The translations under genes were made by a program, and so were the position numbers. The notes under the pieces were generated by a model. That model did no database searches, was not told where the DNA came from, and was given only the letters and a program-made list of their open reading frames with translations. This document shows positions 6,920 through 61,613 of a stretch of DNA of 64,000 nucleotides, piece by piece. The stretch comes from Candidatus Trichorickettsia mobilis (GTDB lineage: Bacteria; Pseudomonadota; Alphaproteobacteria; Rickettsiales; Rickettsiaceae). The stretch lies in contig NZ_OY728607.1 in the NCBI RefSeq assembly GCF_963422225.1, positions 124,001 through 188,000 on the forward strand, in the 5' to 3' direction. Each line of letters begins with the position of its first letter. The stretch's first letter is position 1.

Positions 6920-7827
6920 AGACCTCTTTCGAAACTCATTTACCAAGATCCCAATTATATAAACCAGCAATTAAATTGAACCTAAGACCAAATCTTTTGC
7001 GTCTATTTCGATATTTATCAGCAATTATTTTAAAACGCTTTAACATACCTATAACATTTTCATTTAATACTCTGTCACTTGCTAAACTTCTATTATTTTT
7101 CTTATCTTCTTTGGTTAAAGCATTCTTTTTACTCTTTTTCTTTGGTAGCTCAGAATTTGTATGAATCTTCTGTAAGCCTTGATAACCAGTATCAGTAATC
7201 ACTTTAACCTCAGGCAGTATATGGGTTCTTGATTCTTTAAATAATTTAAAATCATGACGCTTACCATTGGAAAAAGAAGTGCATATGACTCGTTTGCTTT
7301 TCTTATCTACTACTATTTGAGTCTTTAACGTATGTCTTTTCTTTTTACCTGAGTAATAGTATTTCTGTTTTTTTGGGGTCGCTCTATAGGGCTTTCTGTA
7401 GCATCTATTAAAACTAATTCATACTCCATACCGCTTTTAACTAGAGCCTTCTTACCTGGAAGAGCAAAATCCGGATGTTTTATTAGAGTGTCTTCAACAA
7501 AACGAATTGTTTTAAATGCACTGCTTTCGCTAACCCCATAATTCTTAGCTATATGAAAATAGGTACGGTATTCCCTTAAATATTCAAGTGTCATTAATAG
7601 GCTGTCTTCCATACTAAGACTAGCTCTTCTGCCACCTTGGTACCTCCTATTTATTTGTTTCTCTGTCTTTAAAATCCCTACCATCTTTTCGAATGTACTA
7701 TTTCTTACCCCAGTTAATCTTCTAAAATGCTCTTCCGATAAAATGCTTAAATTTTTATATCTCATATAGTTCTAAATTAAGTAAATTCGACTTTATAGCA
7801 TATTTAGTCCAGTTTCGAAAGAGGTCT
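6920..7827 (-). mobile_element. IS5-family (ISL2-like) insertion sequence, copy A
   Basis: 908 bp bounded by AGACCTCTTTCGAAACT and its inverted copy, flanked by AAT at 6917-6919 and 7828-7830. Removing the element and one AAT rejoins the interrupted pseudogene in frame, which proves the boundaries. The 3-bp ANT target duplication fits the ISL2 subgroup of IS5. It carries one transposase gene on the minus strand. Confidence 0.92.
6936..7765 (-). CDS. IS5-family transposase (two frames joined by -1 frameshift), copy A
   Basis: The first frame (7765 down to 7325, 146 aa) has the helix-turn-helix-like N-terminus and the first catalytic Asp (LIDATESPIERP). The second frame (to 6936) carries the second Asp (ITDTGYQG) and the Glu (LNENVIGMLKRFK). 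A slippery A AAA AAC lies in the zero frame near the end of frame one. A -1 slip gives the conserved QKKQKYYYSGKKKRHTLKTQ and a product of about 276 aa. Encoded proteins are identical to copy B, so both look intact. Confidence 0.88.
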
Positions 7828-8622: not shown

Positions 8623-9662
8623 TTAACACGGTGTATTTATCCAGTCTCTATACATAATTGATTTTACTAAATCTACATTCTGAGCAAGTTGATTCCAAGC
8701 GTAACAAGCCATAGTGACAATATCTTCATATGCACCGTAACATTGGTTAGACAAGAAATGATTTTTGATCCACTCCCAAACTTGTTCCATTGCATTAAGT
8801 TCTGGTGCATAAGGCGGAAGCGGTATCAAAGTGATATTGCTTGGAACAGTTAGTTTTTTGGCTGTGTGCCAACCTGCATTATCCATTAGTAAAGCTATAT
8901 GTCGGTTGCTTTGAGTAGTGAGAGAAAGGTCTTCTAAGAATTTATTCATTGCCCGTGTGTTGGCATATGGTAAAATTAATGCAAAAGATTCTCCCGTATC
9001 ATGGCAAGCAGCTCCGTAAATGTATGTTGAAATGAATTGCTGTTGCCGAACTTTACGGGGTCTAGTGCCGCGTTTAGCCCATATACGAGTTAAGCTACCT
9101 TGTTGCCCAACTCGAGTTTCATCCTGAGACCATATATCAACGTTACATCTATCGATATTTTTTGGTAATAATTCTGTTAACATGTCTGGGAAGTTTTTTT
9201 ATATGTATTTTGAGTCTCTTGATTTGACTTTGGATGCATTGAACGAGAAGTAATCCAGCTAAAACCAAGGCGATGCATAGTATTGTAGACTGTTTTTAAA
9301 GCGCATTTAGCGCCATATTCCTCAAGCAACATGTTATGTAGCTCCTTTGCGGTTATATACCCGCCAGTTTCACTTTCACTGAGCATATTGATTTTATCAA
9401 AAAGAGCAGATTCTTGTAGAGTGTTAATCTTCCTAGGAGCGCCGCTTCTTTGTGATTCAAATAAACCTTCAAAACCATGATTTCTAAATCTTCTGAGCCA
9501 TGATTGCACGGTTTTCCAGTGCAACTTCACTATTGCAGATATGGCTTTAAAAGATTTGCCTAATTGAAGGTGATACATCGCCAATAAACGTATGCGATTC
9601 CGACCATGCGGCTCATGTTTCATCATTTTTATAAAATCATGATCATGAAAACCTAGCGGCAA
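8623..9662 (-). CDS. IS630-family transposase (two overlapping frames)
   Basis: Frame one (9662-9177, 161 aa) holds the paired helix-turn-helix part (WKTVQSWLRRFRNHGFEGLF). Frame two (to 8623) holds the DDE core: WSQDETRVG, LLMDNAGWHTAK, and PYAPELNAMEQVWEWIK. They meet at an A7 run (9194-9200 on the minus strand); a -1 slip there gives TYKKNFPDMLTE and a protein of about 346 aa, the normal IS630 length. The stop codon TAA includes the target-site TA at the edge of the element. Confidence 0.85.
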
Positions 9663-10885: not shown

Positions 10886-11793
10886 AGACCTCTTTCGAAA
10901 CTGGACTAAATATGCTATAAAGTCGAATTTACTTAATTTAGAACTATATGAGATATAAAAATTTAAGCATTTTATCGGAAGAGCATTTTAGAAGATTAAC
11001 TGGGGTAAGAAATAGTACATTCGAAAAGATGGTAGGGATTTTAAAGACAGAGAAACAAATAAATAGGAGGTACCAAGGTGGCAGAAGAGCTAGTCTTAGT
11101 ATGGAAGACAGCCTATTAATGACACTTGAATATTTAAGGGAATACCGTACCTATTTTCATATAGCTAAGAATTATGGGGTTAGCGAAAGCAGTGCATTTA
11201 AAACAATTCGTTTTGTTGAAGACACTCTAATAAAACATCCGGATTTTGCTCTTCCAGGTAAGAAGGCTCTAGTTAAAAGCGGTATGGAGTATGAATTAGT
11301 TTTAATAGATGCTACAGAAAGCCCTATAGAGCGACCCCAAAAAAACAGAAATACTATTACTCAGGTAAAAAGAAAAGACATACGTTAAAGACTCAAATAG
11401 TAGTAGATAAGAAAAGCAAACGAGTCATATGCACTTCTTTTTCCAATGGTAAGCGTCATGATTTTAAATTATTTAAAGAATCAAGAACCCATATACTGCC
11501 TGAGGTTAAAGTGATTACTGATACTGGTTATCAAGGCTTACAGAAGATTCATACAAATTCTGAGCTACCAAAGAAAAAGAGTAAAAAGAATGCTTTAACC
11601 AAAGAAGATAAGAAAAATAATAGAAGTTTAGCAAGTGACAGAGTATTAAATGAAAATGTTATAGGTATGTTAAAGCGTTTTAAAATAATTGCTGATAAAT
11701 ATCGAAATAGACGCAAAAGATTTGGTCTTAGGTTCAATTTAATTGCTGGTTTATATAATTGGGATCTTGGTAAATGAGTTTCGAAAGAGGTCT
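10886..11793 (+). mobile_element. IS5-family (ISL2-like) insertion sequence, copy B
   Basis: 908 bp with the same ends as copy A, flanked by AAT at 10883-10885 and 11794-11796. The target was the end repeat of a CATTGCGAG-family palindrome: the flanks rejoin to GAGAGTGTTCAATAAATTG, differing by one base from the intact repeat at 22099. Confidence 0.92.
10948..11777 (+). CDS. IS5-family transposase (-1 frameshift), copy B
   Basis: Frame one runs 10948-11388 and frame two ends at 11777. The heptamer A AAA AAC sits at 11340-11346, exactly in phase (codons CAA AAA AAC), so a -1 slip gives a single DDE transposase of about 276 aa. Catalytic Asp, Asp and Glu are visible in LIDATE, ITDTGYQG and LNENVIG. 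The protein equals that of copy A. Confidence 0.9.
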
Positions 11794-11806: not shown

Positions 11807-11952
11807 AGACCGTCTTTCAAAATTCGCTTCTGAGAGAGGATTTGAAAGAGACACGGAATCTTTACTCGCAACGTACTCTAGGTTTGTTTCGGATTCGAGT
11901 ACTGGCTTGACGTGCAAATCATCCGCAGAAGTAGAGTTTGTAAGAGAAGTCT
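11807..11952. mobile_element. MITE related to the 908-bp IS, copy M1 (diverged)
   Basis: 146 bp aligning along its full length with the 144-bp element at 50002-50145 (shared blocks GAGGATTTGAA, GAGACACGGAA, GGTTTGTTTCGGATTCGAGT and AATCATCCGCAGAAGTAGAG). The ends are degraded (AGACCGTCTTTC and AAGAGAAGTCT) and no target duplication is left, so this is the oldest copy in the window. It codes for nothing convincing. Confidence 0.75.
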
Positions 11953-18497: not shown

Positions 18498-21400
18498 ATG
18501 ACAAAAAATAAAGAAATTAGTTTTTGCTTCACTAAGCTATTAATGCGGAGCATAACTTATGGTGGTGGCATATTATTATTAATTATTCTAGGGTTAGGAT
18601 TTTGGCTCAATACTAATCGAGCTCAGCAGTATATTAGTTTATTGATCATAAATTCTATCAATCAAAACCTTGGTTATAATGTTGAGCTAGATGGTTTAGA
18701 ATTTAAGTTTCCTTTAAAACTTCTTCTGAAGTCTATAAGATTATCAGATCATAATGGATTATGGTTGGCAGCAAAAAATACGCAGCTTAGTGTTTCTCCA
18801 ACAAGATTATTTAGTCGCAAGCTAGTAATTGACGAACTGACGTTTGAGTATATAGAGTTGATTCGTATTCCTGAGCAGGTGAGTGTTAGTGCTAGCAGTA
18901 CTGATAAAGTTGTTGATATCTCTATTAGTAATATTAATATTCTTAATGCTGTAATCAGTCAGCGCATCACTAGCTTGAACTCTGAATTAGCATTAGCTAT
19001 AACAGGGAATCTATTATGGCAGGGAGCGGAAAGAAATTTAACATTTATCCTTGATTCAATTGTTGCAACAAATTTTATCGATTCATTATTTGAACAAGTT
19101 TATTCCTCTCGTGTAGTACACTCTCTGCCATCCCCACATTTTTTGTCATCCCTGCAAAAGCAGGGATCCAGTCGAATCTACATGGATTCCTGCTTTCGCA
19201 GGAATGACAGAGGAGAGTACTGGAATGGATGGTTGAGTCATTCCTCCTTGCGCAAAAACCCAATAGATTTTACTGCTAAACTACATATCGCAGGCAATTA
19301 TTCAATGAAAAATCAGCAGCTTATATTTGATAATTTATTATTGAATTTTAATAATACTATAATCAACGGTAGTAGTAGTATTAACTTTACAACTGAAATG
19401 TTGAATGGACAATATACAATATATACTAATATCTTTCATAAACTCGTTAAAGAGATGGATGAAAATAGCACCATGGACGGGAAGCTAACTCTTGCCGGCA
19501 CTGTAAAAGCTCCGGAGCTTGCAGCTTTTTTGCAGACAAAAAATATAAAGTATATAGATACTTCTATTCCAGATATTTTATGGACAACCATAATCAAATA
19601 TAATGAGCAAAAACTATCTGGCGAGCTTACCGCAACAACTACACTGAAAGATATGTCAATAAAAACTGATTTTGTTTTAGGAGCAGATAATTTAATTTAT
19701 TTTAATAATATTATAGGTAACGCTGATTATGTTACTGCTAAAGGTCAAGCTGTTTGGAACAAGTCTAATAATTTGATTAACGGTAATATAAAGATGGTAA
19801 GTGATGATTTATCGACATTATCAGCATTTTTATTAATCCCATTAAAAGGAAAGGCTGCCGTAGAAATTAAGATGGAAGCACCTTCACAGCTTCAAGCTTG
19901 CATTATTACGGCTAATATTGAGCAATTATTTACCTCGTTAGCGCAAGCCTCAAAAACTTTGATTGACATTAAAGTGAGTGATCTCTGGAAATTAAGGCTA
20001 GAAAAGGCAAAAATAGAGTTTCGTGAGGCTTATGTTCAAGGAAAGATTTTTGATCGCTTAATATTAGAAGCAACTGAACATCATACAGGGTGGAACCTTA
20101 GTATGATAGGCTTTAATCAAGAAAAACATCATTCTTTCAATCTTAAAGCTTTAATATCTTTATTATTAAAATCAGCACAAGAGTTTTCTAGCTCGCTCTC
20201 CAACATCACTGGCAATTATGGTGAGCACAAAATAACCAGTGATCAACCGATGAATTTTGCCTATGATCATGGTAAATTATCATGGGAGATCAAAAAATTA
20301 AAACTGGATAATGGTTTTATTACCGGCAATGGTCAGTTAACTGAGAATAAAATCGATGCAATATTAATATTTGAAAAAATCCCAATTTTGTGGTTGCCAT
20401 TAACAGCCTATTCTCCGCTAAAGCATGCTAAAGCTCATGGTCAACTTACATTAACTGGTAGTCTTTTAGCACCTCAGTTTGCAGGTAATGTGAGAGTTAC
20501 TAACATTGATCTTGCAAATACTGTAGCTCCTGACTCAATGATGATACTGGAGGCTAAGCTTATGGAACAATTGCTGCACATAAATCTAAAAATAACATCA
20601 AGAAATATTGCAGCACTAACTGGAGAATTGACAGTACCAGTTAAAGCCTCATTATCTCCTTTTTTATTTGAAGTGGTGAGAGACGAAAAGATAAAAGGTG
20701 CCTTATCGCTTGATACTTTAATTGAGCCCTTTACCAGAACATATTTGCCGGTCATTCATCAACTTACTGGCGTGTTATCTGGACATCTACAATTAAATGG
20801 TAGTCTCAATCATCCTAAACTTGATGGAATTCTTACTTTTGCTAAGGGCAGTTATATTTATGATAGATTAGGGTTAAAGTTACAAAATATCCATGGTATT
20901 TTTAAAGCTAATAATGGAATTATCAATATAGATGAATTTAAAGCACAAGATAATCAAGGAAATAAACTATCTGCTACCGCCAGGATAATGTTGGATAAGA
21001 ACGATAAACCTTTTGAAGCCACTTTAGTCACTAATGGCTTTAATTTATTAAATCATCCAAACGTTCGTGGGTTGGTAAAAACTGATTTAGTAATAAAAGG
21101 TAATAATGTTGCAGCACAAGCAAGCGGTGCGATAGAAGTCGGATCTTTAGAAATCACTATTCCCGATCAATTTAAACACGATATTCCTACACTAAATATA
21201 GTAGAAACAATTCCACATCCACTAGAAAAAGAATTAATTAACTCAAGTTTTTTATCTACCTATCCATTGTCTATGAAAATATCAATATCTACTAAATCTC
21301 AGATTTTTGTTAGAGGTTGGGGGCTTAATGCAGAACTTGGAGGTAAGCTACAAGTTAAGGGCACTATCGATCACCCAAACATTGAAGGCAAGCTACAAGT

Positions 21401-21989
21401 TATTAGAGGGAGGTATCAGGAATTTGGCAAACAATGGAATCTAAAAGAAGGGTCTCTCATTTTTGAAGGAGATATTCCGCCGTCACCATATTTAAATATT
21501 AAAGGTATCACTACTACAGAAAATATCGAAATTAGCCCAGTATTGTCTGGGCCATTACTTACCCCAACTCTTGCCATTGAATCTTCTCCGATATTGCCCC
21601 AGGAGGAAATATTATCAATACTTTTATTTGGCAAAGAATCGAAGAATATTAGCGCATTTCAAGCAATACAATTAGCTAATAATTTAAAGCGCTTATCAGG
21701 ACATGGGAGTGCAGTGAGTTTTGATCCTATATCTTCCGCTAGAAAATTGCTTGGTGTGGATGACATCAAAGTAAAAACTAATAAAAATGAGCTGGGACAA
21801 CAGGAAACAGCTGTTGGAGTCGGCAAATATTTAACTGACAAAGTATATTTTGAAATTGAACGAGGGATGCAGGCTGGTACTGGAAAGGGGAGAATTGAAG
21901 TAGAAATAACAAATCATTTGTTTATTGAAAGTTCAAGTGGTGGCAATGATTCAAACTCGATAGGAGTCAATTGGCGCAAGGATTATTGA
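18498..21989 (+). CDS. tamB: TamB, inner-membrane-anchored translocation/assembly protein
   Basis: 1163 aa. The ATG follows the tamA stop codon directly. An N-terminal membrane anchor (YGGGILLLIILGLGFWL) is followed by long beta-rich repeats of the AsmA/TamB type and the diagnostic C-terminal DUF490 region (GTIDHPNIEGKLQVIRGRY ... VGVGKYLTDKVYFEIERG). Residues about 205-250 are an in-frame insertion derived from a palindromic repeat (19145-19208), rich in Ser, Arg and Asn. The rest of the frame is intact, so the insertion appears tolerated. Coupled to tamA. Confidence 0.92.
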   Translation: MTKNKEISFCFTKLLMRSITYGGGILLLIILGLGFWLNTNRAQQYISLLIINSINQNLGYNVELDGLEFKFPLKLLLKSIRLSDHNGLWLAAKNTQLSVSPTRLFSRKLVIDELTFEYIELIRIPEQVSVSASSTDKVVDISISNINILNAVISQRITSLNSELALAITGNLLWQGAERNLTFILDSIVATNFIDSLFEQVYSSRVVHSLPSPHFLSSLQKQGSSRIYMDSCFRRNDRGEYWNGWLSHSSLRKNPIDFTAKLHIAGNYSMKNQQLIFDNLLLNFNNTIINGSSSINFTTEMLNGQYTIYTNIFHKLVKEMDENSTMDGKLTLAGTVKAPELAAFLQTKNIKYIDTSIPDILWTTIIKYNEQKLSGELTATTTLKDMSIKTDFVLGADNLIYFNNIIGNADYVTAKGQAVWNKSNNLINGNIKMVSDDLSTLSAFLLIPLKGKAAVEIKMEAPSQLQACIITANIEQLFTSLAQASKTLIDIKVSDLWKLRLEKAKIEFREAYVQGKIFDRLILEATEHHTGWNLSMIGFNQEKHHSFNLKALISLLLKSAQEFSSSLSNITGNYGEHKITSDQPMNFAYDHGKLSWEIKKLKLDNGFITGNGQLTENKIDAILIFEKIPILWLPLTAYSPLKHAKAHGQLTLTGSLLAPQFAGNVRVTNIDLANTVAPDSMMILEAKLMEQLLHINLKITSRNIAALTGELTVPVKASLSPFLFEVVRDEKIKGALSLDTLIEPFTRTYLPVIHQLTGVLSGHLQLNGSLNHPKLDGILTFAKGSYIYDRLGLKLQNIHGIFKANNGIINIDEFKAQDNQGNKLSATARIMLDKNDKPFEATLVTNGFNLLNHPNVRGLVKTDLVIKGNNVAAQASGAIEVGSLEITIPDQFKHDIPTLNIVETIPHPLEKELINSSFLSTYPLSMKISISTKSQIFVRGWGLNAELGGKLQVKGTIDHPNIEGKLQVIRGRYQEFGKQWNLKEGSLIFEGDIPPSPYLNIKGITTTENIEISPVLSGPLLTPTLAIESSPILPQEEILSILLFGKESKNISAFQAIQLANNLKRLSGHGSAVSFDPISSARKLLGVDDIKVKTNKNELGQQETAVGVGKYLTDKVYFEIERGMQAGTGKGRIEVEITNHLFIESSSGGNDSNSIGVNWRKDY
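19145..19208. repeat. 64-bp palindrome inserted in frame in tamB
   Basis: Arms GTCATCCCTGCAAAAGCAGG and CCTGCTTTCGCAGGAATGAC enclose ATCCAGTCGAATCTACATGGAT. Further outer homology extends to about 19110 and 19225. It encodes residues 216-237 of TamB (QKQGSSRIYMDSCFRRND). The same element, same length and same reading frame lies in ftsI at 34935-34998. It behaves like the protein-coding palindromic elements known from Rickettsia. Confidence 0.88.
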
Positions 21990-22097: not shown

Positions 22098-22247
22098 AGA
22101 GAGTGTTCAATGAATTGTGTCAATAAGATTCGTCATTGCGAGGGCTTTGCCCGAAGCAATCCAGTCAATTTCAAACACCGAGTTTTTCTGGATTGCTTCG
22201 ACTTCGTCTCGCAATGACAATTTGACACAGTTCATTGAGCACTCTCT
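22098..22247. repeat. Palindromic element (CATTGCGAG family), copy P2
   Basis: 150 bp with end repeats AGAGAGTGTTCAATGAATTG and its near-perfect complement (two mismatches over 26 bases), inner CGTCATTGCGAGG / CTCGCAATGAC and GAAGCAATCCAG / CTGGATTGCTTC. It is the cleanest complete copy in the window and lies between tamB and the next gene. Confidence 0.88.
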
Positions 22248-22781: not shown

Positions 22782-23594
22782 TTATTTCGAATTAGGATTT
22801 ATAACCCCTCGAGTTTTGCTGACAATAAAACTGATCATATTAATCTGATCATTAAATGTTGTTTCAGTTTTTAAGATTGTTAACATCTTTTTTGAGATCG
22901 AGTAGTTTGGCATATTCATCATGATGTTAGATTCTCCAGCCATTTTTAGTGCTTTCATTAGTGCAAAAGCACTATTATATTCAAGATCAATTTCTTCAAT
23001 ATCAACAATAATATCCTGGAAATTAGCTTGTTGTAATAAAGGAGCCATGTGATCAAAATGGATAAAGGGAGGTATATGTTGACTGTGAAAATGATTTGCA
23101 GCGGTCTCTGCTTCGATTAAGTAATGACGTAAATTTTTAAGGCTCTTGCCGCCGATAAAATTAGCAATAAAAATTCCGTCTGTGGCTAACCAATTATGGA
23201 TATTCTTTAAAAAACGAGGAACATTATTAATCCAATGTAGACCTAATGAAAAAGTAATCAGATCAAAATTATTGGCCGCAAACTCCAATTCTTCTTCATC
23301 TGCCAATAATTTTATTGTACATTCAACTTTATCAATCATCTCAACTGAGATATCGGTGGCAATAAGAGTGGCATTATTATACTTGTTCAGCAAAGCCAAC
23401 GATAAATAACCATTACGACAACCAATATCTAAAATATTAACAAAATTTCGATCTAACATTTGCAAGTTTTCTACAATATTGTCAGCAGCGTACTTTTCAA
23501 GCGGATAATTATTTATGATATTTGCTGCTTTGTTTCTATTGCTGCGTAATCTTTGTCGATTGAATAAGATTGGTTGTTTAGCTAAACGATCCAT
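22782..23594 (-). CDS. SAM-dependent methyltransferase, BioC/NDUFAF5-like
   Basis: 270 aa. The SAM motif I is ILDIGCRNGYLSLALL (about residues 54-69), followed by ATDIS, a post-motif FDLITFSLGLHWINNVP and a C-terminal cap. The pattern MDRLAKQPILFNRQRLRSNRNKAA at the N-terminus resembles mitochondrial NDUFAF5 and its alphaproteobacterial relatives, which act in complex I assembly; BioC is the alternative. The start codon directly follows a MITE end, which supplies GAGAGAGG eight bases upstream as a possible RBS. Originally the gene started about 4 bases after the upstream transglycosylase stop. Confidence 0.8.
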   Translation of the reverse strand: MDRLAKQPILFNRQRLRSNRNKAANIINNYPLEKYAADNIVENLQMLDRNFVNILDIGCRNGYLSLALLNKYNNATLIATDISVEMIDKVECTIKLLADEEELEFAANNFDLITFSLGLHWINNVPRFLKNIHNWLATDGIFIANFIGGKSLKNLRHYLIEAETAANHFHSQHIPPFIHFDHMAPLLQQANFQDIIVDIEEIDLEYNSAFALMKALKMAGESNIMMNMPNYSISKKMLTILKTETTFNDQINMISFIVSKTRGVINPNSK

Positions 23595-23595
23595 T

Positions 23596-23737
23596 AGACC
23601 TCTCTCACAAACTTAGCAATGCGGATGATTTGTACACATGTCAGGTACTCGAATCCGAAACAAACCAAAAGTATGCTGCGAGTCGAGGTTTCGTGTCTCC
23701 TTCAAATCCTCTCTTTGACGCGATGTGAGAGAGGTCT
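23596..23737. mobile_element. MITE related to the 908-bp IS, copy M2
   Basis: 142 bp bounded by AGACCTCTCTCACAAACT and GTGAGAGAGGTCT, flanked by ATT at 23593-23595 and 23738-23740. It aligns along its length with the MITE at 50002. The left duplication overlaps the start codon of the methyltransferase gene (CAT at 23592-23594 on the plus strand). It occupies nearly the whole gap between two co-directional genes. Confidence 0.9.
23729..23736 (-). promoter_or_regulatory. Purine-rich MITE end opposite the gene-proximal end (not an RBS)
   Basis: Both MITE ends contain GAGAGAGG or its complement. At this end the purine-rich strand is the plus strand, so it cannot serve the minus-strand genes. The functional candidate is the other end at 23597-23604, where the minus strand reads GAGAGAGGTCTAATG into the methyltransferase start. 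I record both to avoid confusion. Confidence 0.4.
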
Positions 23738-23743
23738 ATTTAA

Positions 23744-24670
23744 TTATTGGGCTACCGGTTGGCGTGGTGGTACTCGTACCATCATATTGTTACGATTTTT
23801 GTTATTTAGTGATATTTTTCTATAAGTTGCATTGTTTTTTGCAGTAGCTCTCTTCTGAAGTTCTATTTCCGCGGATGATTTATATATAGGTTTAGTGCTC
23901 GAATTCTTACGAGTGCTAACATATGCTTCTGGCTTGCGTGTTCTATCTCCACGATTGTTATTCAAAGCAGCGGTTTTTAAAAAAGCTCTAGCTTTATTTG
24001 GTGTTGAAACATAAGTTTTTTCTGGTTTAGTAGCGAGTTTTTGGTAAGAAACTTTAGAAACTGATGGAGGAGGGTGATTATAATAATGTGGATATGAATA
24101 TGCTTTTAAAGAATATTTGTATTCATTCATATTATTGGCAATTTTTACCACACTTTCTTTGTATTTTGAGCCAAGCTCATGGGTTGCGGAATGGTAATGG
24201 GCAATTGCCTGCAACCAATTACCCAGTTGAGCATATTTTTTTTTAAGAAATTCAGCGCCATAAGTAATATTGCTGACCGGATCAAAAGCATGTTCAATAG
24301 ATTTAAAGGCATCAGGATGATGCTTAAGATTGATCTGCATGCAACCAATATCAATGCTGGTTTTACCAGTGAGTAGCTGTTGTTTGACGAATAACACTGC
24401 TTCTTTTTTATTATCAAAAAAATAACCTTGTCCTTCAACATTCACAGTCCAAGGCCAAACAATCCTGATATTATGTTTAGAGTGAGTTTTTCCGGATTCT
24501 TGTAAAGAAATTGAGTGCAAAGTATCTAAAGGAATACGGTGTTTTCTTTCGAAATATGAAAATAACCGTGAGCATTTTAATGATTCTGCCATTTCACGAT
24601 CAAGTACCGCAAGCGTTTGGTAAGGAAAGTACCAAAGGGTAAACGATAAAAATAACCGCAAAAACATCAT
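23744..24670 (-). CDS. Lytic transglycosylase, SLT domain
   Basis: 308 aa with a signal peptide (MMFLRLFLSFTLWYFPYQTLA). The SLT domain has the catalytic Glu58 in SISLQESG, the motif IDIGCMQINLKHH (family GLMQI) and the helix QAIAHYHSATHELGSKY. It would cleave the glycan strands of peptidoglycan in the periplasm. The last 130 residues are basic, rich in Lys, Asn and Ser, and look disordered; they may bind the wall or a partner. The methyltransferase gene follows on the same strand after a MITE. Confidence 0.88.
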   Translation of the reverse strand: MMFLRLFLSFTLWYFPYQTLAVLDREMAESLKCSRLFSYFERKHRIPLDTLHSISLQESGKTHSKHNIRIVWPWTVNVEGQGYFFDNKKEAVLFVKQQLLTGKTSIDIGCMQINLKHHPDAFKSIEHAFDPVSNITYGAEFLKKKYAQLGNWLQAIAHYHSATHELGSKYKESVVKIANNMNEYKYSLKAYSYPHYYNHPPPSVSKVSYQKLATKPEKTYVSTPNKARAFLKTAALNNNRGDRTRKPEAYVSTRKNSSTKPIYKSSAEIELQKRATAKNNATYRKISLNNKNRNNMMVRVPPRQPVAQ

Positions 24671-34476: not shown

Positions 34477-34889
34477 TCATACGAGTATTTAATTGTATAG
34501 TTTTTGCTATATGCTGTGCTACCGTTTATGGGTTGTTTATCATCAAGAGTCAAGTGAGAACTTTTTGTTATCAAATTGATGAATTAAATAAGCAGATATT
34601 AGAAGAAAAGGATAACATTCATATGTTGAAGGCAAAAATGGCCTATTTAACATCACCAGATAGATTACGCCAGCTATCTAGTAAGTATCTTGGTTTAGAT
34701 AATGTGCGTAGTCATCAGATGATAGCAGACCCATTATTACAGACTGTTAATATCAAAGCAGAGAAACAATATGCGGTAGCTAATTTAAGTACCAAGCATC
34801 ACATTAAATGGCGTTATAAGAAGATCTCAAGCAAGTATATACAACGGGTTGTTGCAACCAAAATTGATAATTATGGACGTATTCAATAA
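34473..34889 (+). CDS. ftsL: Cell division protein FtsL
   Basis: 138 aa with a single N-terminal membrane helix (CIVFAICCATVYGLFII), then a leucine-zipper-like coiled coil (QIDELNKQILEEKDNIHMLKAKMAYLTSPDRLRQLSSKYLGL). FtsL bridges FtsB and FtsQ in the divisome and helps activate FtsWI. Position between rsmH and ftsI is canonical. RBS AAAGGAG lies inside the end of rsmH. The sequence is short and poorly conserved, as usual for FtsL. Confidence 0.85.
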   Translation: MIIRVFNCIVFAICCATVYGLFIIKSQVRTFCYQIDELNKQILEEKDNIHMLKAKMAYLTSPDRLRQLSSKYLGLDNVRSHQMIADPLLQTVNIKAEKQYAVANLSTKHHIKWRYKKISSKYIQRVVATKIDNYGRIQ

Positions 34890-36747
34890 GCTATATCAAT
34901 ATTGGTTACAGATCATATCCGAATTGTGTTTTTTGTCATTCCTGCGTAGGCAGGAATCCAGTAAAACATGCATGGATTCCTGCCTACGCAGGAATGACAA
35001 AGAGTACAGGGATAATAGAGAGCACTGGAATGACAATAAAGGTTTCAAGAACGACGTAAGTCAGAAAAGCATATATCAGATTATTTTTGCGTGGGATTTA
35101 TATGATCATAGTGCCAGATTCAGGATTGTAATAATTATTGGCATTTTTGCTCTGTGCTTTATCGGTTTGGCTTATCGTTTATTGATTGTAACCAATAGTA
35201 ATCATCTCAAATCCAATGAATATTCAGCTAAAACTAATTTTAGAAAAGAAATAGTAGATCGTTACGGTAAGGTGTTGACTATAAGCGTACCTTCATCATC
35301 ATTATTTGCATATCCGGCTAAGATAACTGATCCACGACAGTCATTAAATAAATTATCTAAAATCATCCCAAATCTAAATATAGAAAAATTATTGCTTGAA
35401 TTATCTGGTAATAAAAATTTTGTTTGGATAGCACGTGACCTTAGCCCAGCAATACAAACTGAAATTACTAATCTTGGGTTACCAGGATTTGGTTTTGAGC
35501 GTGAACAAAAACGAGTTTATCTTTTTGGTCGAGTACTTTCTCATATTATTGGTTATGTAGGTAGGGATTTAATCGGACTTGCAGGATTAGAAAAGAAATA
35601 TGATCAATTCTTACGAAATGTTGACCAGGTAAATAGTGATAATAATGCTAATGCAGCATTAGAATTGTCTGTAGATGTCAGGTTACAGACGATCTTAAGC
35701 GAGGAATTAGAGTCTACCATACAACAATTTAATGCGATTGGTGGTGCTGCTATTGTTGCAAACCCTCATAACGGCGAAATCTTGGCAATGGTATCTAAAC
35801 CAGATTTTGATCCTCATCATCCGCAGAAAGCAACGAATACTCAGCTATTTAATACAGCAAGTCATGGAATTTATGAAATTGGTTCGGGTTTTAAGTCGGT
35901 AACGATTGCCATAGGATTGGATACAGAAGCAATAACTGTACATGATGCCTATAACATCAGTTATATGCGAGTAGGGAGATTTGAGGTTAAAGATTATCAT
36001 CCCAGAAGCGGTTGGCATAGTGTTGCTGAGATTTTTCTACATTCTTCTAATATTGGTACTAGTCAAATTATTCTTGAGATTGGTAAGAATAATTTTAAAA
36101 AATATCTCAAAAATTTAGGGTTGCTAGAGCAATTAACTATTGAATTGCCGGAACGTGGTACTCCACTTTTTCCTGCTGATAGTCGTTGGACTGATTTAAG
36201 TTTGGTCACTATGTCTTATGGTTATGGGATTTCGATTAGTCCGCTACATTTTGTGCAAGCGATGTTACCAGTAGTAAATGGTGGTTATTTATATCCATTA
36301 ACTTTAATAAAAAAACAAAATAATCAGCTTATTGGGAAAAGAGTATTTAGTGAAGAAACTTCTAGGCAAATGCGAAAATTGCTACGTTTAGTGGTGAAAG
36401 AGGGAACTGGAAAAAGAGCAGATGTCAAAGGTTATTTAGTTGGCGGCAAAACCGGTACGGCTAATAAGTCTGTTGCTGGGCGTTATGCTCAAAATAGTAG
36501 AATATCATCATTTTTCGGGATGTTGCCGGCATCAAATCCGCAATATGTTATTTATGTGATGCTTGATGATCCAAAAGGCAATAAACAGACCTCCGGACAT
36601 GCTACCGCCGGCTGGAACGCTGCGCCCTTAGTAAATAAAATTTTTGAACGGATGGTGGCTTTATACGGACTCAGTGCAATTGATGAAGAAAGTTCGGAAA
36701 TCCAGAATATATTAAATATAGATTATAAAATTGACCATGAAATCTAA
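34873..36747 (+). CDS. ftsI: Peptidoglycan D,D-transpeptidase FtsI (PBP3)
   Basis: 624 aa from the ATG at 34873 (an upstream TTG at 34849 is less likely). Short cytoplasmic N-terminus, one membrane helix (IVIIIGIFALCFIGLAYRLLIV), a dimer/pedestal domain, then the transpeptidase: Ser338 in GSGFK, SSN at 391-393, KTG at 526-528. It cross-links septal peptidoglycan. Residues about 18-58, before the helix, derive from a 64-bp palindromic element and its flanks (SFLRRQESSKTCMDSCLRRND), yet the frame is intact. Overlaps ftsL by 17 bases. Confidence 0.94.
   Translation: MDVFNKLYQYWLQIISELCFLSFLRRQESSKTCMDSCLRRNDKEYRDNREHWNDNKGFKNDVSQKSIYQIIFAWDLYDHSARFRIVIIIGIFALCFIGLAYRLLIVTNSNHLKSNEYSAKTNFRKEIVDRYGKVLTISVPSSSLFAYPAKITDPRQSLNKLSKIIPNLNIEKLLLELSGNKNFVWIARDLSPAIQTEITNLGLPGFGFEREQKRVYLFGRVLSHIIGYVGRDLIGLAGLEKKYDQFLRNVDQVNSDNNANAALELSVDVRLQTILSEELESTIQQFNAIGGAAIVANPHNGEILAMVSKPDFDPHHPQKATNTQLFNTASHGIYEIGSGFKSVTIAIGLDTEAITVHDAYNISYMRVGRFEVKDYHPRSGWHSVAEIFLHSSNIGTSQIILEIGKNNFKKYLKNLGLLEQLTIELPERGTPLFPADSRWTDLSLVTMSYGYGISISPLHFVQAMLPVVNGGYLYPLTLIKKQNNQLIGKRVFSEETSRQMRKLLRLVVKEGTGKRADVKGYLVGGKTGTANKSVAGRYAQNSRISSFFGMLPASNPQYVIYVMLDDPKGNKQTSGHATAGWNAAPLVNKIFERMVALYGLSAIDEESSEIQNILNIDYKIDHEI
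34935..34998. repeat. 64-bp palindrome inserted in frame in ftsI
   Basis: Arms GTCATTCCTGCGTAGGCAGG and CCTGCCTACGCAGGAATGAC around AATCCAGTAAAACATGCATGGATT. Same length, layout and reading frame as the copy in tamB at 19145. It encodes about residues 21-42 in the cytoplasmic tail of FtsI. Confidence 0.88.
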
Positions 36748-38221: not shown

Positions 38222-38377
38222 TAATATGCATCAAGTTAAGAAAAAAGAGACGGTTCAAATAGTCTTGTTTGAGCCGGAGGCGAAGCAATCCAGTTAAATA
38301 GAACCTCCTGGATTGCTTCGCCTTCGGCTCGCAATGACAATTGAGCATCAATTTTTTAAACTTGACGCATATGCATA
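38222..38377. repeat. Palindromic element (CATTGCGAG family), copy P6
   Basis: Outer arms ATATGCATCAAGTTAAG and CTTGACGCATATGCAT, inner GGCGAAGCAATCCAG / CTGGATTGCTTCGCC. Only the right inner arm keeps the exact CTCGCAATGAC. It splits the dcw operon between murE and murF and could form a strong hairpin in the transcript. Confidence 0.82.
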
Positions 38378-49971: not shown

Positions 49972-50221
49972 CGTCATTGCGAGGGCTAGACCCGAAGCAA
50001 TAGACCTCTTGCGAAACTCGCTTCTGGGTGAGGATTTGAAGGAGACACGGAACCTCGATCCGCAGCGCACTTTTGGTTTGTTTCGGATTCGAGTACCGGC
50101 TCGACGTACAAATCATCCGCAGAAGTAGAGTTTCGCAAGAGGTCTAATCCAGAAAATAAGCTACACAAAATCCTTAGGGCTACTGGATTGCTTCGATTTC
50201 TTATGAAATCTCGCAATGACG
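49972..50221. repeat. Palindromic element (CATTGCGAG family), copy P7, split by a MITE
   Basis: Left half CGTCATTGCGAGGGCT...GAAGCAAT, right half AATCCAG...CTGGATTGCTTCG...CTCGCAATGACG. Removing 50002-50145 and one AAT restores GAAGCAATCCAG, exactly the sequence in intact copies. It lies between the alpha-2-macroglobulin gene and yajC. Confidence 0.88.
50002..50145. mobile_element. MITE related to the 908-bp IS, copy M3
   Basis: 144 bp with perfect ends AGACCTCTTGCGAAACTC and GAGTTTCGCAAGAGGTCT, differing from the IS ends by one base in the first 17. AAT is duplicated at 49999-50001 and 50146-50148. Short frames inside it encode the same meaningless peptide as copy M2 and are not genes. Confidence 0.93.
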
Positions 50222-50324
50222 ATTGAATCGCTATTTGTCGTGTAAGTCAATAAGTTGTATAGATGAAGTTTAACTTGACTTAAATCTAGTCAATGGTAGT
50301 TTATACCCTAAAAAGGAGAAGATA

Positions 50325-60705: not shown

Positions 60706-61613
60706 AGACCTCTTTCGAAACTCATTTACCAAGCTCCCAATTATATAAACCAGCAATTAAATTGAACCTAAGACCAAATCTTTTGCGTCTATTTCGATGC
60801 AATTATTTTAAAACGCTTTAACATAATTTATCACCGATAACATTTTCATTTAATACTCTGTCACTTGCTAAACTTCTATTATTTTTCTTATCTTCTTTAG
60901 TTAAAGCATTCTTTTTACTCTTTTTCTTTGGTAGCTCAGAATTTGTATGAATCTTCTGTAAGCCTTGATAACCAGTATCAGTAATCACTTTAACCTCAGG
61001 CAGTATATGGGTTCTTGATTCTTTAAATAATTTAAAATCATGACGCTTACCATTGGAAAAAGAAGTGCATATGACTCGTTTGCTTTTCTTATCTACTACT
61101 ATTTGAGTCTTTAACGTATGTCTTTTCTTTTTACCTGAGTAATAGTATTTCTGTTTTTTTGGGGTCGCTCTATAGGGCTTTCTGTAGCATCTATTAAAAC
61201 TAATTCATACTCCATACCGCTTTTAACTAGAGCCTTCTTACCTGGAAGAGCAAAATCCGGATGTTTTATTAGAGTGTCTTCAACAAAACGAATTGTTTTA
61301 AATGCACTGCTTTCGCTAACTCCATAATTCTTAGCTATATGAAAATAGGTACGGTATTCCCTTAAATATTCAAGTGTCATTAATAGGCTGTCTTCCATAC
61401 TAAGACTAGCTCTTCTGCCACCTTGGTACCTCCTATTTATTTGTTTCTCTGTCTTTAAAATCCCTACCATCTTTTCAAATGTACTATTTCTTACCCCTGT
61501 TAATCTTCTAAAATGCTCTTCCGATAAAATGCTTAAATTTTTATATCTCATATAGTTCTAAATTAAGTAAATTCGACTTTATAACATATTTAGTCCAGTT
61601 TCGAAAGAGGTCT
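60706..61613 (-). mobile_element. IS5-family (ISL2-like) insertion sequence, copy C
   Basis: 908 bp, same ends as copies A and B, flanked by ATT at 60703-60705 and 61614-61616. Compared with copy A, an 8-base block ATTTATCA has moved 27 bases within the transposase second frame, keeping the length unchanged. Confidence 0.92.
60818..61551 (-). pseudogene. IS5-family transposase, copy C (second frame truncated)
   Basis: Frame one (61551-61111) encodes the same protein as in copies A and B. Frame two starts normally (ITDTGYQG) but the displaced octamer shifts the frame after LNENVIG and stops at 60818, removing the last third including the basic C-terminus. The transposase is likely inactive, though the ends could still be moved in trans. 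Confidence 0.8.

Follow-up and report, generated by a model that had tools for sequence, protein, structure and literature searches.

The window analysed here, a stretch of 64,000 nucleotides from Candidatus Trichorickettsia mobilis (contig NZ_OY728607.1, positions 124,001 to 188,000), contains copies of a 144-bp repeat, which is Rickettsia palindromic element 1 (RPE1), and of a 908-bp insertion sequence (IS) that its sequence places in the IS5 family. These features and their target site duplications (TSD) are as follows.

6920..7827, minus strand: IS5-family IS, 908 bp, TSD AAT
10886..11793, plus strand: IS5-family IS, 908 bp, TSD AAT; ORF1 at 10948-11388, then a second frame past a run of A
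11807..11952, plus strand: worn RPE1 copy without TSD, 13 bp from the IS at 10886
19602..19604, no strand: empty 3-bp site within ORF 18498-21989; G001, a genome of the same genus, has an RPE1 there (L208)
23596..23737, minus strand: RPE1 copy, 142 bp, TSD ATT, adjoining the ATG of ORF 22782-23594 on its upstream side
23846..23989, minus strand: tentative fourth RPE1, worn, in frame in a lytic transglycosylase (SLT) gene at 23744-24670 (element by nucleotide profile alone, SLT by Pfam)
49975..50225, no strand: host repeat (GTCATTGCGAGG..GAAGCAATCCAG..) split by RPE1, limits approximate
49999..50001, no strand: target duplication AAT, left copy
50002..50145, plus strand: RPE1 copy, 144 bp, with perfect 17-bp terminal inverted repeats, AGACCTCTTGCGAAACT at both ends
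50146..50148, no strand: target duplication AAT, right copy
60706..61613, minus strand: IS5-family IS, 908 bp, TSD ATT

The copies at 50002, at 23596 and, worn, at 11807 all lie where the initial annotation had placed them, and an ANT duplication indeed borders two of the three (AAT/AAT at 50002, ATT/ATT at 23596, but GTC/ACT at 11807). The element ends had also been described as differing from those of the IS by one base in 17. This is correct for the 50002 copy, since the IS ends are AGACCTCTTTCGAAACT and differ at 1 position of 17 from AGACCTCTTGCGAAACT, but it applies neither to the 23596 copy, whose ends are AGACCTCTCTCACA.., unlike those at 50002, nor to the worn third copy. A search of the genome with the 144-bp sequence, as had been suggested, returned 40 rows, some of them partial and some the palindrome of a copy already listed. 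The 50002 element interrupts another repeat. The filled site reads GAAGCAAT / AATCCAG, so that the empty site carries AAT once, and GAAGCAATCCAG is found uninterrupted elsewhere, for example at window positions 22153 and 2483, with 47 exact occurrences in the stretches examined. This host repeat is a second, shorter palindrome (GAAGCAATCCAG .. CTGGATTGCTTC) scattered over the window at about 2483-2513, 22153-22188, 38282-38308 and 50183, and one of its copies hosts the RPE1 of 50002.

The 144-bp family is RPE1, an already known element described by the NCBIfam model TIGR01045. With its frame typed by hand and one stop left out, the window copy at 50002-50145 scores 31.2 bits against this model, for a cut-off of 30. 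With stops intact, the cut-off is exceeded in three host genes, mfd (39.6 bits), dnaX (39.3 bits) and murD (48.6 bits), while uvrC (20.4 bits), a peptidase gene (28.1 bits) and rnhA (25.4 bits) stay below it; the model matches at least 6 of the 13 in-frame host genes, at least three of them above the cut-off. The tentative copy at 23846-23989 gave no match to the model at E 0.1, and Rfam gave none within the window. Besides matching TIGR01045, the family forms palindromes of about 100-150 bp with a long hairpin, lies in frame in conserved genes and is confined to Rickettsia and relatives. On this last point, 49 of the 85 family genomes contain RPE1, 46 of them above the TIGR01045 cut-off, and among the controls the model matched 0 of 14. 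When named genomes were scanned with a pattern, 68 loci came up; apart from 2 belonging to a single MAG titled Holosporales, all were titled Rickettsia or Rickettsiales. The plasmid collection yielded no RPE1 DNA.

The elements had initially been called non-coding, which does not hold for the family as a whole: 13 of 43 two-ended copies of this genome lie in frame inside ORFs, that is within an open frame extending 25 residues or more on either side. The 43 copies come from a profile search of about 357 kb of the 1.68-Mb genome, in stretches chosen around matches; each element end was picked on its own by its likeness to AGACCTC, and there are no double entries. Family models name 11 of the 13 host genes, namely uvrC, mfd, rnhA, dnaX, murD, era, holA, addB, an Xaa-Pro peptidase-like gene, a glutamine amidotransferase (Peptidase C26) and the SLT gene of the window, the other 2 having no match. 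The length of the element is divisible by 3 in 13 of 13 in-frame copies versus 10 of the 30 others (Fisher p 3e-5). Among 147 copies from relatives, taken from loci of earlier searches and related to one another, the figures are 65 of 65 in frame versus 63 of 82 others. In 11 of the 13 in-frame copies here, as in 61 of the 66 frames counted in relatives, the element's very first base opens the frame. This frame is open from end to end, which makes 48 codons, and with the 3-bp duplication 49 codons are added.

Identical 3-bp flanks surround 25 of the 43 copies of this genome (ATT 15, AAT 9, AGT 1), where five shifted control positions give 3, 1, 2, 2 and 1, as well as 98 of the 147 copies from relatives. 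The duplicated triplet is ANT in 122 of these 123 cases, and shifted controls give 1-6 copies with identical flanks; the copies being akin, these counts, like the shuffles given below, overstate significance. Separate flank searches provided 27 elements, grouped by hand, with an empty counterpart in another stretch. The flanks overlap at the empty site by exactly 3 bp in 20 of them, by 2 bp in 1 and by 0 in 4, and leave a gap of 9 or 29 bp in 2; among the 20, L158 and L161 have their flanks in common and cannot be taken as independent. The 20 include two G001 copies absent from this genome, one of them at window 19602-19604. Both the flanks and the empty sites, proposed as checks at the outset, bear out the duplication noticed in the window. 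The RPE1 copies of relatives also have AGACCTC-like ends, and ANT duplications where the flanks match. Altogether, these ends and duplications, along with an IS5-family IS that duplicates ANT too, show that RPE1 has the form of a miniature inverted-repeat transposon (MITE) of IS5 type, typically 144 bp long, running from AGACCTC to GAGGTCT and inserted at ANT with a 3-bp duplication.

We then considered the 908-bp IS. Once its two frames were joined by hand, its transposase scored 212 bits against the NCBIfam model NF033581 (transpos_IS5_4), for a cut-off of 140, and Pfam recognizes HTH_Tnp_4 and DDE_Tnp_4 in the separate frames. An ANT duplication borders 31 of 33 full copies (AAT 20, ATT 10, ACT 1). 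The two exceptions are reciprocal: ATT/AAT at G000:C1 1631217-1632126 and AAT/ATT at 1637421-1638329. Recombination between the two copies, inverting the intervening stretch, would be expected to leave such a pattern. Among the matches listed, full-length copies are 97-100% identical. The genome contains 52 DDE_Tnp_4 matches, 48 of which fall in DNA matches or end pairs of the 908-bp IS, the remaining 4 lying at most 450 bp from an exact IS end; no second DDE_Tnp_4 IS was seen in the genome. Nor did we see a rival IS with ends closer to those of RPE1 among the 100 end-pattern sites listed out of 168, with pairs examined in chosen stretches. No RPE1 was found within an IS copy in the stretches of this genome.

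RPE1 and the IS have in common their terminal inverted repeats and their target duplication, as expected of an IS5-family MITE. Beyond the ends, which alone align, there is no meaningful similarity between them, and the early remark that the interior of the element is foreign to the IS, so that it is not a simple deletion derivative, proved accurate. MITEs usually resemble their parent IS inside, as deletion derivatives of it, though this is not required. Relatives of the IS from other bacteria have variants of its end motif, belonging to the TTTCG, TTCGG, TTTCC, GCAT and GCAC types, and RPE1 copies carry TTTCG, TTCGG, TTTCC and GCAT ends among others.

The variable bases of the ends and the hairpin were analyzed across copies. 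In 64 copies of 144 bp mutually differing by more than 11 bases, 92.6% of the cells of the outer stem (14 pairs) are paired, versus 32-53% when one side is slid, and double changes occur in 13 of the 14 pairs. The inner part folds better than shuffles, with a mean z of -2.8 and values below -2 in 24 of 35 copies. When the six variable end bases are compared between left and right, the 43 copies of this genome show 1.37 mismatches versus 3.08 for shuffled pairs, and both sides are identical in 16 copies versus 2.2; in other genomes, there are 0.80 mismatches versus 2.35, with 74 of 147 copies identical versus 9.7. The cause of this matching may be selection, template switching or the existence of separate lineages. 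As the variable bases of both ends agree within a copy far better than in shuffled pairs, one could also imagine RPE1 as a "tail-changing" passenger, whose ends would evolve in concert and switch among IS5-group end types, a single ancient and coding-compatible hairpin having travelled through Rickettsiaceae with successive ISs of this kind. We put this idea forward tentatively and regard it as somewhat doubtful.

What moves RPE1 is a more delicate question. We consider it likely that RPE1 is an IS5-type MITE, frame-neutral at in-frame ANT codons and mobilized in trans by IS5-group transposases, and that the resident IS is a recent arrival which moved few or none of the copies here. A copy that lands on an in-frame ANT codon (Asn, Ile, Ser, Thr) would add 48 + 1 codons without a frameshift, and this could be why RPE1 survives in essential genes; the anatomy is directly visible in the copies, whereas selection is what we infer from it. 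Transposases of the group to which the 908-bp IS belongs would have moved RPE1, and perhaps still do, and the IS, judging from its age, would be a recent arrival of that group, to which few copies of this genome, or none, probably owe their position. The mover is thus probably an IS5-group transposase, though not demonstrably that of the resident 908-bp IS.

The initial annotation had gone further and proposed that the transposase of the resident IS itself moves the elements in trans. The shared ends and the common ANT duplication speak in favor of such a relationship, and TTTCGA, the type of the IS, is among the commonest left ends of the RPE1 copies of this genome (7 of 48, tied with TCTCAC). 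However, the part of the proposal that concerns the resident IS fits poorly with the ages of the two elements. In contrast to the near-identical IS copies, the 42 RPE1 copies compared have a median nearest-neighbour identity of 84.5% and a maximum of 96.5%, none having a partner at 97% or above, and the spread of RPE1 therefore looks older than the burst of the IS. Moreover, G001 has two RPE1 copies at sites empty here, yet it gives no match to the IS transposase. At the level of genomes the association is weak: of the 85 genomes, 12 have both the IS transposase and RPE1, 37 have RPE1 alone, 6 the IS alone and 30 neither. We had also set beforehand the prediction that RPE1 ends match those of the resident IS, counting distinct copies and requiring both ends. 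This was so for 14 of 18 copies in G097, 5 of 11 in G105, 6 of 15 in G101 (one of the six having TTTCGAAACT exactly at both ends), 1 of 8 in G102 and 1 of 10 in G094, hence a clear match in one of the five genomes tested, in a sample of end types that is biased because the copies were found with a TTGCAAAACT-ended query. In G103, which lacks the IS, 11 of 15 copies are of the TTTCGAAACT type. We find it quite improbable that the resident IS moved the copies of this genome.

A different transposase, sharing end sequence and target with the IS group by chance, would account for the 37 of 49 RPE1-bearing genomes that give no match to the IS. It would also suit G103, where RPE1 has spread recently: its copies are near-identical (nearest-neighbour median of 97.9% for 13 copies), but this genome shows neither a match to the IS transposase nor an IS at its exact end sites, of which 47 out of 50 belong to listed RPE1 copies and the other 3 to additional RPE1-like copies. 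On the other hand, an IS since lost, or carried by an unassembled plasmid, would explain these gaps equally well, and chance has to give RPE1 and IS a 17-bp end identity, end variants that overlap between the two and a common ANT target, so that we judge this explanation unlikely. As for a spread without any transposase, for example as a hairpin or an RNA, the strongly paired outer stem with its double changes and the well-folded interior could be invoked in its support. The near-constant length, the terminal repeats and the exact 3-bp ANT duplication argue against it, these features being the marks of a DDE transposase, and we give it hardly any credence.

If RPE1 is indeed an IS5-type MITE, as we favor, its in-frame habit is plainly explained by 144 + 3 bp, a frame open from the first base and ANT codons. 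Telling a young resident IS apart from old elements with the same ends also calls for caution before any MITE is tied to a neighbouring IS. Since 2000, RPEs have been recognized as selfish DNA whose presence makes essential rickettsial proteins longer. Our RPE1 copies agree with RPE-1 of TIGR01045 in their peptide frame, length of about 144 bp, hairpin and in-frame insertion into genes; RPE1 is thus a known family, whose mobile form is now made visible. A parallel can be found in the RUP of Streptococcus pneumoniae, which is linked to IS630-Spn1, of another IS family than IS5. RUP is described as a small palindrome with ends presumed to function in transposition but, unlike RPE1, as having TA at its ends and no open frame (PMC2229807). 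In Table 1 of the same article (Delihas 2007), the TSD of RPE is given as "?" and its TIR as 12 bp, whereas the copies here and in relatives display AGACCTC-like ends and ANT duplications. Other RPE families and the Wolbachia palindromic elements are likewise small palindromes in rickettsial genes (see PMC3767692). Excerpts of PMC2229807, PMC10969869 (a 2024 MITE review), PMC2635572 (Rickettsia phylogenomics, 2008), PMC3767692 (R. japonica), PMC4316617 (R. felis) and PMC5656822 (torix Rickettsia) contain no link between RPE and a transposase, and no paper making one appeared among the further titles and abstract openings listed; an earlier mention in the first RPE papers is possible.

A few further observations were made along the way. 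In G019, a second IS5-type IS, of about 42% protein identity, has the RPE1-like elements L158 and L161 right after its transposase, both at the same point, so that they may travel with it. In the RPE1 of L241 (record: Rickettsia endosymbiont of Oxypoda opaca), both ends have together turned into a C-rich run, a change that goes beyond the usual variable bases. Back in the window, two overlapping minus-strand ORFs at 8623-9662 resemble, on visual inspection, a transposase gene that has been split. Finally, ORF 18498-21989 and ORF 34849-36747 both contain a DSC(F/L)RRND peptide, which looks like another small in-frame repeat.
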